From the NCBI RefSeq assembly GCF_025995175.1, contig NZ_BAPV01000061.1:248001-312000 (forward strand): 64,000 bases of DNA, given 5' to 3'. Source of the DNA: Asaia krungthepensis NRIC 0535. GTDB taxonomy: Bacteria; Pseudomonadota; Alphaproteobacteria; Acetobacterales; Acetobacteraceae. The position numbers and the translations under genes are program-made. Below are positions 56,634 to 62,301 of the stretch, piece by piece (within the stretch, counting starts at the first letter, position 1; each line of letters starts with the position of its first letter). The notes below the pieces were generated by a model. The model had not been told where the DNA came from and did no database searches. It saw nothing but the letters and a program-made list of their open reading frames with translations.

Positions 56634-57140
56634 ATGACGGATGACAAGACAGGATCAGACGGGAAAGCCCAGCCCCAACCGGGCCCGGGCGACATAACCC
56701 TGCCCGATATCGACATGCAGTCGGAGGGGTTCCGCCTCAACCGCGAAGCCCGTCGCAACGCGCTGATCGAGGATTACGTCGAGTTGATCGCCGATCTTCT
56801 GGCCGAAGGATACGAGGCCCGTCAGGTCGATATTGCAACCCGTCTTGGCGTCTCGCAGCCGACCGTCGCCAAAATGCTCACCCGGCTTTCAACTGAGGGC
56901 TATGTGCATCGCCGACCCTATCGAGGCGTGTTCCTGACCGAGAAGGGGCAGGAAGTCGCCAATCAGGCGAAAAATCGTCACCAGATCGTCGAGAGTTTCC
57001 TGCGTGCCCTCGGGATCAGTGAAGAGACAGTGCGTGTCGATGCAGAAGGTATCGAGCACTATGTGAGTGACGAGACGCTGGATGCGTTCGATCGCGCTCT
57101 CGCAGCAGGGCTGACCGACCTCCTCAAACCGAACAACTGA
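56634..57140 (+). CDS. mntR: Manganese-responsive regulator MntR (DtxR family)
   Basis: Represses Mn2+ uptake genes when Mn2+ is abundant. 168 residues. An N-terminal Pro-rich tail (about 1-30) is followed by a winged helix-turn-helix (about 40-105, [21 protein letters not shown]) and the dimer/metal domain ([15 protein letters not shown] and [15 protein letters not shown]), which carries the His, Glu and Asp metal ligands in DtxR order. ATG 56634 was chosen because the frame upstream overlaps glsA on the other strand and looks random. mntH is 1.2 kb downstream in the same direction with one convergent gene between. Confidence 0.93.
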
Positions 57141-57155
57141 TCGCGAACTGCTCGA

Positions 57156-58010
57156 TTATTTGGACATGATGGGAGCCTCGTAGCGCGCCGCTCCGCAAAG
57201 CGATGCCCCATGATGGAGCAGGGTGTAAAGCCGCCCTGCCAGCCAGGCAAAGCGATCGACACGACGGGTCAGGTCGATGCCCTCATGAAACTGCAAGCCC
57301 GGCACCTCCCTGGTCAGATCGCCCGGTGATCGCATGGCCCATGCGAAATTGGCCCCGGTCTGGCGGACACTGGGATTACTCTGAGAATGACGCATGGCAA
57401 ACGGGGACACATAATCGAGGACCACGCAAAGCCTCGAGTCATGGTCATGGGCGTAGGAAACGAGAGCTCTTAGCAGCGCGATGATTTTCCGGGGCTCGAG
57501 ATACATGAAGACCCCTTCGGCGAAAAAGATGACAGGGCGCCCGGTTTCGTCCGGTAGATCTGCCATCCACGTCGTCAGGTCTGTCGCGTCACTGACAAGT
57601 TCGAGGCCACCGCTCGTCTGAAGGGCCACACGGCGGCGCAAGGCATGAATTTCAGGAAGCTCCACATCCACCCAACGGCAGCGACCGGCATTGTGCAATC
57701 GGGGGCGCCTGATATCGAGGCCAGAGCCGAAACTGATGCAGAGAGAGTTTGGGAAACGGTCGAGCCAGGCGGCAATCTGCTGGTCGAACCAGAGCGCGCG
57801 CAGGATGGTACCCCTCATCGATTTGCGATCTGCACGGAAACGCGCCGGATCGAAATCGAAACTCATGGCGATGGCCTCGGCGTTTGGGTCGCGAAAACCG
57901 AGATCGGGGTTATCACGCGGCGCAAGAACGCGCGCGGCCAGAGTGATGAGCATGGTCTCCGGAACACCGGTGAGACGGCGTATCACCGGGTCAGTCTCTC
58001 TGGCCGCCAT
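57156..58010 (-). CDS. SAM-dependent methyltransferase (LCMT / tetracenomycin O-methyltransferase type)
   Basis: A 284-residue class I methyltransferase of the PPM1/LCMT group (PF04072). Visible blocks are LCISFGSGLDIRRPRL at about 90-105, the SAM motif, with a Ser in place of a usual Gly; WVDVELPEIHALRR, the acidic second motif; DATDLTTWM; and VIFFAEGVFMYLEP, the post-motif. These enzymes methylate carboxyl or hydroxyl groups of small molecules or peptides; the substrate is not evident. It lies convergent with mntR and divergent from mntH, and has no clear functional link to manganese. Confidence 0.85.
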   Translation of the reverse strand: MAARETDPVIRRLTGVPETMLITLAARVLAPRDNPDLGFRDPNAEAIAMSFDFDPARFRADRKSMRGTILRALWFDQQIAAWLDRFPNSLCISFGSGLDIRRPRLHNAGRCRWVDVELPEIHALRRRVALQTSGGLELVSDATDLTTWMADLPDETGRPVIFFAEGVFMYLEPRKIIALLRALVSYAHDHDSRLCVVLDYVSPFAMRHSQSNPSVRQTGANFAWAMRSPGDLTREVPGLQFHEGIDLTRRVDRFAWLAGRLYTLLHHGASLCGAARYEAPIMSK

Positions 58011-58256
58011 GATGCGATACCCTCCTCAGGGGGCGAGCTGCGAAGCAGCGTGGTAATGTGCAATTCATTATTATTATCGTTTTTACCTTGTCTGCACAGG
58101 CTGATCGTGCTCGTTTGAGGCAGGCTGGGCAATCTAGCGCCGCCCTGCTTACCCCGCCTCCCCACGCTTTCTCCCTTCCTCGCCTCCCGCGACTCTGAGC
58201 ACGCTCAACTTCTGCCTCAAGAGGACGTTATCGGTCCGCAATCCTGCACGCCGAAG

Positions 58257-58277
58257 AATATAGTATATTGCATATCT
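58257..58277 (+). promoter_or_regulatory. Candidate operator of mntH
   Basis: AATATAGTATATT (58257-58269) is a perfect 13-base palindrome around a central G, and is followed by GCATATCT. It lies 35 to 48 bases before the mntH ATG in an AT-rich spacer, where MntR sites usually sit. It shares ATAG with the classical MntR box but not its full ATAGC-N4-GCTAT core. Confidence 0.4.
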
Positions 58278-58304
58278 CTAAGCATTAGGTTTGAGTATCA
58301 CCTT

Positions 58305-59708
58305 ATGTCCAGCCTGCCCCCTGCCCACCGAGCCCCTACCGAGGGGGCGCCCACCGAGCCTGCGCGAACCGGGCGAAGGCGACTGCTTCGCCACGTCGAT
58401 GAGGCAGGTTCCGGCACGCGCAGCTTGCCGGAGGTTTTTTCCTCCGTGCGGGTCGCGCCGGACCATGCCAGGTGGTTCCAGCGCTTTCTCGCTTACGTCG
58501 GGCCGGGCTACATGGTGGCCGTCGGGTATATGGACCCCGGAAACTGGGCGACGGATCTGCAAGGCGGCGCGCAGTTCGGCTACACGCTGCTTTCTGTCAT
58601 CATGATCTCGAACCTCATGGCGATCCTGCTTCAGGCCCTTGCGGCGCGTCTGGGCATTGTCACCGGCCGTGATCTGGCCCAGGCCTGTCGCGATCATTTC
58701 CCGCCTGCGGTCACGCTGATGCTCTGGCTGACCTGCGAGATCGCCATCATTGCCTGCGATCTGGCGGAGGTAATCGGCACGGCCGTGGCGCTTCAGCTTC
58801 TGTTTCACATACCGCTCCTTTTCGGGGCGCTGATCTCGGCCTTCGATGCGCTCATCGTGCTTTTTCTGATGAACCGGGGATTTCGGTATCTGGAAGCCTT
58901 CATTATCGCGCTGCTGACCATTATCGCGTTCTGCTTCTCCGTGCAGCTTGTGGCGGCGGCTCCGCCTTTCGGCGCCATGATGGCGGGATTCCTGCCACGC
59001 CCCGAAATCGTGACCAATCCGGCAATGCTCTACATCGCCATCGGCATCATTGGCGCGACCGTGATGCCGCATAATCTGTATCTGCATTCGTCCATCGTGC
59101 AGACACGGGCCTATCCGCGCACGGAACCCGGCAAACGAGAAGCCCTGCGCTGGGCGACATTGGACAGCACGATCGCCCTCATGCTTGCCCTGTTCATCAA
59201 TGCCGCGATTCTGATTGTATCGGCCGCGGCGTTTCACAACACGGGTCATCAGGACGTTGCCGAGATCGAGGACGCCTATCGTCTCCTGTCACCCATTCTG
59301 GGCATGGGGATCGCCTCGACGCTTTTTGCCGTGGCCCTTCTGGCGGCCGGGACAAACTCCACCGTGACCGGAACGCTGGCCGGGCAGATCGTCATGGAGG
59401 GCTTCCTGCATCTGACGCTACCGCATTGGGCAAGGCGCCTGATCACCCGCGGTCTGGCGATCCTGCCGGTCGTGGTTGTGACGGCCCTTTATGGCGATCA
59501 TGGGGTGGGGACATTACTGATCTTCAGTCAGGTCGTGCTCTCTCTGCAGCTCCCTTTTGCTGTCATTCCGCTGGTCATGTTCGTTGCCGATCGACGCAAG
59601 ATGGGGAGCTTCACCGTTCCCCCTGCGATGAAAGCGCTCTCCTGGAGCGTGGCGGGGATTATCCTGATGCTCAATTTCAAGCTGCTCTATGACACGATCA
59701 TGAGTTGA
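58305..59708 (+). CDS. mntH: Nramp-family Mn2+ transporter MntH
   Basis: Proton-coupled importer of Mn2+ (and Fe2+). 467 residues and about 11 membrane segments. Metal-binding motifs are Asp77-Pro-Gly-Asn80 in [12 protein letters not shown] (segment 1) and Met254-Pro-His256 in [12 protein letters not shown] (segment 6). A hydrophilic N-terminal extension of 60 residues is longer than in E. coli Mnt[26 protein letters not shown] is also typical. It follows mntR and precedes a TBDR with a putative MntR site. Confidence 0.96.
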
Positions 59709-59773
59709 GCCCCCGCATGCGGCATCAACCCACGCCAAACGACCGGCTGGCGGCCAGGAGAGCACGCATAAGC

Positions 59774-59833
59774 CAGCGCTGACCGTCCAATCACGTGTTG
59801 GCGGGCCAGCTTCACGGTGCTGTCAGCGCTGAC
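59774..59833. repeat. Two copies of CAGCGCTGAC, the second in a 12-base palindrome
   Basis: CAGCGCTGAC occurs at 59774-59783 and 59824-59833, 50 bases apart. The second is part of the perfect palindrome GTCAGCGCTGAC (59822-59833). They lie in the mntH to TBDR spacer (59709-59934), which otherwise shows no gene. Confidence 0.4.
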
Positions 59834-59934
59834 GAAAGGGACGGGTTACTGCCCGTCCGACTGCCTACAGAGCCCGGGCTCGCGCCCTTTCTTCCATGTT
59901 CTTCACCCCTCTCGTAGAAGGTTCAGACCCCGCG

Positions 59935-62301
59935 ATGCCAACATTCAGAAGTCAATATAGCAATTGCTATGATGATAAGTATTTGAGAATTAGTGCAGCA
60001 TTTACTCACTCGCTCTTTGCGTGTCGAAGCGCGCCGCTCATTGCCCTTACTTTCGCCTGCCTACTGCTCGCCGGTACGGCGCATGCCGCATCCGCCCCAG
60101 AACAGGCCCCAACCTCCGCCTATCCTGCGCGTACCGGGCAACCGAAGACTCATCGTAGAATGGTCGAAGCGACAACGCCCCACCTGCCCGCCACGCCCCC
60201 CGCACATAATAAAGCCAGCACACCCGGCACTCCGCCACCGAGCCTTGTGCGCCTGCCGCGCAAACAGGCCGGGACAATCGCCGAGACGATCAACGTCACC
60301 GCCCATATGGATCAAAGGCGCGGACGCATCGCGCCGGGGCTTGGTGCGGTATCCTACGGGATCGACCAGCGTCAGATCGAGGTGACACCCGGGGGGGAGA
60401 ATGCCGCCTTCAGTCAGATCCTGCTCCGCCTGCCTGGCGTTGTGATGGACAGTTACGGCGAGGTCCATGTCCGTGGCGAACATGGCGGGCTGACCTATCG
60501 CGTCAATGGCGTCCTTCTGCCTGAGGGACTCAATGGGTTCGGACAGGAGCTCGACAGTCGCATCATCCAGTCTGTCGATCTGCTCACGGGCACCCTGCCA
60601 GCCCAATTCGGGTTTCGTACGTCCGGCGTGATCGACGTGAAAACCAAGACTGGCGATACGCTCAGGAACAACCAGTTTTCGCTCTATGGCGGCAGCTACA
60701 ACACGTTCATTCCGTCTCTTCAGCTCGGCGGGTCCAAGGGGCGCTGGGATTATTTCGTCACGGCGTCCTATAACCGTAACGATCTCGGGATAGAGAACCC
60801 CACCAATTCCTTCCGGGCCGTGCATGATTTCACGCAGCAGGAAAAAGGGTTCGGCTATCTCGCGTATCAGATCGACGACGAAAGCCGGATCAGCCTGCTG
60901 ACCAGCGCCTCCTATGCCGATTTTCAGCTACCCAACACGACGGCTCTGCCAATCCTGTATCATTCATCCACTATCGCGCCGGATGATCCGAGTATCCAGT
61001 CCCGCCTCTTGCGTGACGGCCAGACCGAGCAGAATTACTACGCCGTACTCTCCTATCAGCGTAGCGGCGAAAAGCTCAACACGCAGGTTTCTCCCTATTT
61101 CCGGTACGGACGTATCGGGTACCGCAACGATCCGAACCGCGATCTCGCGTTCTCCGGCATTTCACAGCGCGAAGTGAACGACTTCACGACGGGCGGGCTC
61201 CAGATCGATAACTCATACGACATCGCCCCGCATCATGTGCTGCGTTTCGGGCTTCTCGGGCAATACACCTCCGAGAAACTCGATACCGATACGCTCGCCC
61301 TCCCGGTGGATGAGGCAGGTGCCCAGAGCTCGATCATCCCCCGGCGCATCATCGATCATGGAGGGAACTGGGCGGTCGAAGCCGGCGCCTATCTACAGGA
61401 CGAATATCGCATCACGCCCAAACTGACCTTCAATTACGGGCTGCGCTATGACCGTTTTGCATCGTCCTTCCATCAGGAGGGGCAGTTGAGCCCACGCGCG
61501 AACATGGTCTGGAAGGCCAGCCCCTCCACGACGGTGCATTTCGGCTATTCGCGCTATTTTGCACCACCCTCACCGCAATATATTTCTGATGCCACGCTGC
61601 GCAAATTTGCGGGAACGACCAATGCGCCCGAAACCATGCTGAACACACCCACGCGCGTCGAGAAATCGCATTATGTCGATGTCGGGATCCTCCAGCATGT
61701 CACGCGTGACTATCAGGTCACGCTCGATGCCTTTGGCAAATGGGCACGCGATCAGGGCGATCTGGGACAATTCGGTCGCGCCGTCATTCTGGCGCCGTTC
61801 AGCTATCGCACGGGGCGTGTCTATGGCGCAGAAATCGGCAATGCGTGGCGCCATGGCGGCTGGTCGGTCTATGGCAATTTCTCGTTCGTGAAAACATGGG
61901 CGAAGGACATCAACTCGGCGCAGTACCAGTTCGAGGTTGCTGAGCTCGATTATGTGCGCCGCCATGGCATCCAGCTCGATCACCAGGGGGAATTCACCTC
62001 GTCCGCCGGCGTTTCCTACAGCAACAAGCATGACATGGCCTATCTCGATTTCCTCTATGGCTACGGGTTGCGCAGTGGCTTTGCCAATCTTGAGAAGCAA
62101 CCCCCCTACGCCATATTCAATATCGGCTACGCGCATAGTTTCACGAAAGTCCCGTTTGGCCATTCGCTGAAATTACGGGCCGATGTGGTCAATCTGTTTG
62201 ACCATCGCTACCAGATCCGTGACGGAAGCGGGGTAGGCGTGACACAGGCGCAATACGGCCAGAGGCGCGGCACCCTCTTCTCGATTGTGAGCAGCTTCTG
62301 A
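59935..62301 (+). CDS. TonB-dependent receptor downstream of mntH, candidate Mn2+ receptor
   Basis: Outer-membrane receptor, 788 residues from ATG 59935. The start is uncertain: ATG 59896 is upstream, and TTG 59983 begins right after an AT-rich stretch with a regulator-like palindrome, so translation may begin there. The signal ends LTFACLLLAGTAHA. A long Pro/Thr-rich linker leads to the TonB-box-like ETINVTAHM at about residue 116. The plug has GGENAAFSQILLRLPGVV, VHVRGEHGGLTYRVNG and TSGVIDVKTKTGD; the barrel ends IVSSF. The position after mntR-mntH suggests manganese entry through the outer membrane, as proposed for MnoT of Bradyrhizobium. That function is inference. Confidence 0.88.
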   Translation: MPTFRSQYSNCYDDKYLRISAAFTHSLFACRSAPLIALTFACLLLAGTAHAASAPEQAPTSAYPARTGQPKTHRRMVEATTPHLPATPPAHNKASTPGTPPPSLVRLPRKQAGTIAETINVTAHMDQRRGRIAPGLGAVSYGIDQRQIEVTPGGENAAFSQILLRLPGVVMDSYGEVHVRGEHGGLTYRVNGVLLPEGLNGFGQELDSRIIQSVDLLTGTLPAQFGFRTSGVIDVKTKTGDTLRNNQFSLYGGSYNTFIPSLQLGGSKGRWDYFVTASYNRNDLGIENPTNSFRAVHDFTQQEKGFGYLAYQIDDESRISLLTSASYADFQLPNTTALPILYHSSTIAPDDPSIQSRLLRDGQTEQNYYAVLSYQRSGEKLNTQVSPYFRYGRIGYRNDPNRDLAFSGISQREVNDFTTGGLQIDNSYDIAPHHVLRFGLLGQYTSEKLDTDTLALPVDEAGAQSSIIPRRIIDHGGNWAVEAGAYLQDEYRITPKLTFNYGLRYDRFASSFHQEGQLSPRANMVWKASPSTTVHFGYSRYFAPPSPQYISDATLRKFAGTTNAPETMLNTPTRVEKSHYVDVGILQHVTRDYQVTLDAFGKWARDQGDLGQFGRAVILAPFSYRTGRVYGAEIGNAWRHGGWSVYGNFSFVKTWAKDINSAQYQFEVAELDYVRRHGIQLDHQGEFTSSAGVSYSNKHDMAYLDFLYGYGLRSGFANLEKQPPYAIFNIGYAHSFTKVPFGHSLKLRADVVNLFDHRYQIRDGSGVGVTQAQYGQRRGTLFSIVSSF
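59957..59970 (+). promoter_or_regulatory. Candidate MntR box ATAGC-N4-GCTAT
   Basis: ATAGCAATTGCTAT is a perfect 14-base palindrome in the AT-rich 5' region of the fifth TBDR. Its ATAGC-N4-GCTAT core and spacing are the same as in the E. coli mntH MntR site as I recall it (AAACATAGCAAAGGCTATGTTT in two parts: AAACATAGCAA and AGGCTATGTTT). With mntR and mntH adjacent, MntR repression of the TBDR is likely. Confidence 0.6.

Follow-up and report, generated by a model that had tools for sequence, protein, structure and literature searches.

An MntR-type operator, kept across genera and restricted to genomes that carry mntR, is supported by sequence comparison at a gene for an outer-membrane TonB-dependent receptor (TBDR) in the acetic acid bacterium Asaia krungthepensis NRIC 0535. 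The receptor gene lies near mntR, which encodes a manganese-responsive regulator, and mntH, which encodes an Nramp-type manganese importer, within the 64,000-nucleotide stretch that we analyzed (the window; contig NZ_BAPV01000061.1, positions 248,001 to 312,000; Table 1). We estimate at roughly 80% the probability that mntH and the receptor make up an MntR-controlled manganese-acquisition unit.

A conserved palindrome at the receptor gene

The candidate operator, ATAGCAATTGCTAT, is an exact match to the core and spacing of the enterobacterial MntR box and a perfect palindrome, as the original prediction held. The upstream regions of E. coli K-12 mntH and mntS, read by accession, agree: ATAGCAAAGGCTAT stands directly upstream of mntH and ATAGCACAGGCTAT upstream of mntS, both of which we take to be MntR sites, and the receptor box shares their half-sites and 4-base spacer. 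The putative regulator is similarly close to its E. coli counterpart. The mntR product scores 224.7 bits against the NCBIfam MntR equivalog (cut-off 153), has an MntR (2h09) as its top match in the Protein Data Bank, and shares 59% identity with E. coli MntR across 138 alignment columns, including a 13-residue helix-turn-helix stretch that is identical in the two proteins.

Statistics from a single genome are too weak to decide whether the palindrome matters, and its weight comes from comparison across species. Although an exact match occurs nowhere else in the genome (3.5 Mb), allowing up to 3 mismatches yields 54 palindrome sites versus 95 for a reversed control, so there is no genome-wide excess, and the 2 matches in the window versus 1.08 expected are weak evidence taken alone. 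Among nine genomes of the genus, TAGCANNTGCTA occurs once in each of eight and twice in the window's own, versus 2–7 sites per genome for the reversed control, and in all nine one site stands at the receptor; the window's genome has its extra site on a short contig, where an unrelated open frame ends.

We searched 397 genomes of Acetobacteraceae for the receptor and for MntR. The ortholog set comprised the 38 genomes with a receptor match of at least 54% among the matches listed, broken copies included, although copies reduced to small fragments may have gone unnoticed. A box was scored wherever the 500 bp preceding the match contained ATAGC-N4-GCTAT with no more than one mismatch in its half-sites. 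Conservation of the palindrome in related genomes had been named beforehand as a point on which the prediction could fail, and it held: among the matches listed, the box is present in 34/34 genomes with mntR (28 exact, 6 with one mismatch) and in 0/4 genomes without it (G046, G136, G061 and G126). Fisher's test of the association gives p = 1.4e-5, a value that treats genomes as independent and leaves kinship uncorrected. In the receptor tree, G046 groups with Asaia and Swaminathania while G136 and ESL0709 fall in another branch; ESL0709 (L197) stands for G061 there, G061 and G126 themselves being absent from the rows (G126 is of the same genus as G046), and L215, L222, L225 and L227 were left out with the pattern missing. 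Because the rows lacking both mntR and the box sit in two branches inside the clade, the tree suggests two separate joint losses of regulator and box. Such co-losses are a stronger point than the Fisher test, but there are only two of them.

A set of named loci from another collection, which largely overlaps in species with the 38 genomes, gives the same picture, with the box in 51/52 loci and ESL0709 as the sole miss. These 52 were counted out of 77; left out were L214, which begins inside the gene, 20 loci at 39–43% identity, and four distant loci from other groups (L196, L200, L202 and L204), of which L200 is nearly devoid of upstream DNA. Outside Asaia and Swaminathania (44 named loci), the 5 kb covered on the mntR side of the receptor shows the order mntR(-) mntH(+) receptor(+) in 13 loci and mntR(-) receptor(+) in 4. 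Upstream of mntR itself in the more divergent genomes (L122–L130, n = 9), the core TAGC-N4-GCTA is exact in 3, as GTAGC-N4-GCTAC, and has one mismatch in 4, which is weak evidence.

A second element before mntH and the start of the receptor

A near-operator palindrome (AATATAGTATATT, 58257–58269) had also been predicted before mntH. It is present, but the conserved unit is instead a slightly different one, ATATAGTATATTGCATAT (consensus ATATAGCATATTGCATAT), which we call M2. At up to 3/18 mismatches, M2 stands upstream of mntH in 18/22 genomes with mntR versus 0/8 without, in a test of 30 mntH loci out of 130 genomes that had a match; G136, among the eight, shows a weak match to another protein and was scored as lacking mntR. 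In two of the exceptions (G025 and G037), the mntH copy is remote from mntR and M2 lies beside mntR in the genome; the other two (G055 and G052) have GTAGC-N4-GCTAC in its place. At the receptor, M2 is found 108–282 nt upstream of the box in 27/27 named loci without mntH directly upstream, 4 of which have a divergent mntR instead, and between mntH and the box in 0/24 named loci with mntH directly upstream. Because of this complementarity, M2 seems to mark the start, or promoter, of the transcription unit, such that the receptor would belong to the mntH operon or stand under an M2 promoter of its own.

The original prediction took the receptor to begin at the TTG at 59983, downstream of the box. 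Conservation of frame and of upstream start codons speaks for the ATG at 59935, and the box thus probably lies inside the gene. In the window, the box with its preceding T reads Y-S-N-C-Y in the receptor frame, and boxes are in frame in 46/51 named loci. Across these 46, the box is separated from the conserved HVRG motif by 28 distinct distances, every one a multiple of 3, and an in-frame start (ATG in 41, GTG in 5) lies 15–45 nt upstream with no stop between; in 25 of them the distance to the first box codon is exactly 15 nt. By comparison, the distance to the first start codon downstream of the box takes 13 different values, and 4/46 have no such codon. The 38-genome set is similar (31/34 boxes in frame, 29 with an upstream ATG). 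Tyrosine codons within the box are TAT in 89/89 cases versus 57% in gene bodies; therefore, the letters are constrained at the DNA level. In three Acetobacter loci (L192, L212 and L234) there is no in-frame upstream ATG, but a GTG stands 21 nt before the first box codon, at the position of the Asaia ATG; L193 and L198 have a GTG at that position plus an ATG further upstream. In Gluconobacter oxydans, according to the accessible part of a report, TTG starts 29/973 genes (3%) with a 5' untranslated region of at least 20 nt, and leaderless mRNAs nearly always begin with ATG (PMC5756330). With the start at 59935, the box would encode Tyr-Ser-x-Cys-Tyr (with variants) within a long signal peptide.

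One could thus envision the following mechanism. When Mn2+ is sufficient, MntR would turn the unit off by binding both M2 at its promoter (here before mntH, elsewhere before the receptor) and the ATAGC-N4-GCTAT box where the receptor gene begins, the latter most likely within the first stretch of coding sequence. Through the in-gene box, which could be a roadblock or coincide in part with an internal promoter, the receptor would come under a further layer of control beyond that of mntH. When manganese is scarce, MntR would leave the DNA, and manganese, as Mn2+ or in a complex, would cross the outer membrane through the TBDR, with MntH then carrying it across the inner one. MntR binding to the box or M2, repression, co-transcription and the substrate are all steps that we infer from the arrangement of genes and sites.

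Cargo, sister receptors and competing explanations

The receptor is a plug and beta-barrel TBDR by its Pfam match (PF00593, 85.5 bits, cut-off 27, for 59983–62301), by its AlphaFold model (mean pLDDT 78.8, residues 1–122 poorly modelled) and by Foldseek, whose nearest folds (PqqU, PiuA, FptA, YncD and FyuA) are generic TBDR matches without a pointer to cargo. Since there is no close solved homolog, manganese specificity rests on regulation and neighbors, and manganese as the cargo is inferred from MntR, from mntH and from the contrast with a sister branch of receptors.

These sisters, which include a receptor of the window's own genome (C4:270854), are the next-best matches at about 40% identity, and the tree sets them apart on a side of their own (12 rows, 100/100). 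In a control of 26 such loci, including three 5' pieces of split genes (L049–L051), the MntR-type box was found in 0/26, whereas a Zur-type palindrome, TGTTAT-N3-ATAACA (as TGTTATATTATAACA), was present in 22/26 within 2 mismatches and in 24/26 within 3. Conversely, the Zur-type box within 3/15 mismatches was found in 0/38 members of the window's group among the matches listed, and in 0/52 named loci. The roughly 40% relatives of the named set are mixed, some with the Zur-type box and some without. According to the accessible parts of the respective reports, the same kind of box has been predicted upstream of the Zur-repressed Caulobacter genes znuK and znuL (PMC4176598), and the paralog box resembles the Zur motif of Paracoccus (PMC5387054). 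The paralog in the window's own genome (G000:C4:270854–273154; L035, L045) is preceded by the Zur-type box TGTTATGTTATATCATACA, which lies roughly 100 bp before the match, and the opposite-strand open reading frames (ORFs) that follow it look, by eye, like an ABC transporter of the dipeptide/nickel type; it is a candidate zinc receptor. A site before this paralog (C4:270746, 3 mismatches) was considered as a second MntR box and rejected, as the paralogs carry the Zur-type box there. We lean slightly toward a fuller reading in which one receptor family of acetic acid bacteria is split into a Zur-box zinc branch and an MntR-box manganese branch. The latter would have two operators of different build, and one of these would lie in the codons of the receptor's signal peptide (Tyr-Ser-x-Cys-Tyr) and let the receptor be shut off apart from mntH within one transcript.

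Several observations weigh against these readings. Only four receptor-holding genomes lack mntR, and they come from two lineages. No box was found in the distant relatives outside the Acetobacteraceae with readable upstream DNA (L196, L202 and L204), one of which stands beside an mntR. The receptor, as noted, is without a close solved homolog, and M2 has the form GCA-N3-TGC versus the canonical GCA-N2-TGC, so that another protein might be its reader. As to the start, 5/51 boxes are out of frame (L187, L189, L191, L205 and L208; L191 is Asaia prunellae, in which the receptor is in pieces). Third positions account for 509/1920 differences in the 12 nt before the box (no bias) and for 669/1811 in the 12 nt after it (a slight bias) versus 87% in the gene body, and with so little bias beside the box, coding around it is not proven. 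Lastly, the -10-like second hexamer of a promoter-like match, TTCAGA-18-TATGAT, overlaps the right arm of the box.

That overlap is the starting point of an alternative in which the box sits in a promoter, its right arm GCTAT being part of an extended -10 (TGCTATgAT), with transcription from about 59980 and translation from the TTG at 59983 or a nearby codon. The small third-position bias would agree with this, as would the good signal peptide (judged by eye) that begins at the TTG and the 6/46 in-frame loci in which the first downstream start lies, like TTG 59983, at +26 from the box. However, the scatter of downstream starts and the upstream ATG or GTG in all 46 loci argue for the in-gene position, lineages that lack the +26 start still have the box in frame, and M2 provides a candidate promoter upstream of the ATG in the loci without upstream mntH; we thus consider a promoter position rather unlikely. 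It is also quite unlikely, in our judgment, that an MntR-controlled receptor takes up something else, such as an iron or zinc complex, heme, or a chelate made under manganese stress. Its best NCBIfam match is a heme receptor model, but at 57.8 bits this is far under the cut-off of 316.85, and while the Zur-type boxes of the nearest paralogs make zinc possible as the ancestral cargo, the window's group lacks such boxes, and both its neighborhood and its own box link it to mntR and mntH. Finally, the palindrome could be a chance or coding-driven repeat without a regulatory role, given the weak single-genome statistics and the fact that it is in frame in most species. Against this, a box with at most one mismatch was reached in 49/3800 first-order Markov sequences (1.3%) built from the 38 receptor upstream regions, versus 34/38 of the real regions; codon choice inside the box is far from that of the gene; and the box is absent where mntR is absent. 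This explanation is accordingly very improbable.

The locus and its relation to known systems

Table 1. Features of the Asaia krungthepensis locus (window coordinates)
Feature	Position	Strand	Basis or remark
mntR, DtxR-family Mn-responsive regulator	56634..57140	+	NF008273 equivalog match
LCM-like SAM-dependent methyltransferase	57156..58010	-	Pfam PF04072; between mntR and mntH
M2 element	58258..58275		upstream of mntH
mntH, Nramp-type Mn2+ importer	58305..59708	+	NCBIfam NF001923, 639.8 bits (cut-off 430)
TBDR gene	59935..62301 preferred (ATG, 788 aa); alternative start TTG 59983	+	Pfam PF00593
Promoter-like TTCAGA-18-TATGAT	59944..59973	+	consensus match only: 9/12, TG before second hexamer
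MntR-type box	59957..59970		exact match and conservation
FdhF/YdeP-type oxidoreductase	from 62396		after the receptor gene

The three genes had been described as one 5.7 kb block. Their identities are confirmed; they are not contiguous, a minus-strand methyltransferase gene splitting mntR from mntH. This gene, which is not thought to be part of the manganese unit, is found between mntR and mntH in 3/7 other named Asaia loci (L160, L191 and L209) and has no match in the nearest locus, L158, or in the remaining named loci compared. Among named receptors, the closest comes from Asaia sp. W19 (93%). Near the locus, Rfam gave no credible match (a single chance-level one, E 0.56), and no mntP exporter turned up in the genome.

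Decayed and distant relatives were also seen. The receptor is split into several frames in G126 (L149), G152 and G153; the last two are draft genomes, in which the split may be an assembly error. In G126, mntH is split as well, which, together with the lack of mntR, fits decay of the whole manganese unit. In a Spartobacteria metagenome-assembled genome (L196), a source whose contigs can be misassigned, a 57% receptor relative and an mntR homolog (41%) are divergently arranged neighbors, and mntH (58%) is about 2.6 kb downstream; the cluster also has ExbB- and ExbD-like ORFs (by eye), and ExbB-like ORFs follow the receptor in L202 and L204 too.

Few routes for manganese across the outer membrane are known, and a coherent manganese unit with an outer-membrane receptor would extend over several genera (Asaia, Gluconobacter, Acetobacter, Gluconacetobacter and others). 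Zur-box and MntR-box sister receptors in one genome offer a direct way to ask what sets the metal choice of a TBDR, and an operator seemingly inside the coding sequence and missing together with its regulator makes a clean test system. The E. coli MntR regulon, which consists of mntH, mntS and mntP and to our knowledge includes no outer-membrane receptor, resembles the Asaia system in the half-sites and spacing of its box and in the helix-turn-helix stretch of MntR.

An MntR-controlled TBDR, which the original prediction held would be new in an acetic acid bacterium, already has a published case elsewhere: the accessible part of a recent report (PMC13217887, May 2026) describes an MntR module of Stenotrophomonas maltophilia with mntR, mntH, mntP, a CQNC-type TBDR and pTFP. 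There, too, a TBDR lies beside mntR-mntH with a predicted MntR box, and expression responds to manganese and iron. In contrast, the S. maltophilia box lies 75 bp upstream of the start, compared to a position at or inside the gene start in Asaia; the CQNC plug motif occurs in 0/31 alignment rows here, the window's receptor included, which has no cysteine after the signal region; and the module's mntP has no counterpart that we could find in this genome. In the literature searched, which lacks most subscription papers, there was no report of the system in acetic acid bacteria.

MnoT, which the original prediction assigned to Bradyrhizobium, is the TonB-dependent manganese receptor of Burkholderia, the Bradyrhizobium protein being MnoP, according to the accessible part of PMC9334652. 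Burkholderia thailandensis MnoT is likewise a TBDR, importing manganese under manganese limitation, a role that for the window's receptor is suggested by regulation and neighbors; MnoT differs in working with a secreted manganese-binding protein, TseM. Compared to the Zur-regulated zinc TBDRs ZnuK and ZnuL of Caulobacter crescentus, as described in the accessible part of PMC4176598, the roughly 40% paralogs carry the znuK-type box (GATGTTATATCATAACAAT), whereas the window's group has the MntR-type box in place of a Zur-type one. MntR-linked outer-membrane receptors as such are thus known, and the new part is a well-supported branch of them with an unusual operator position.

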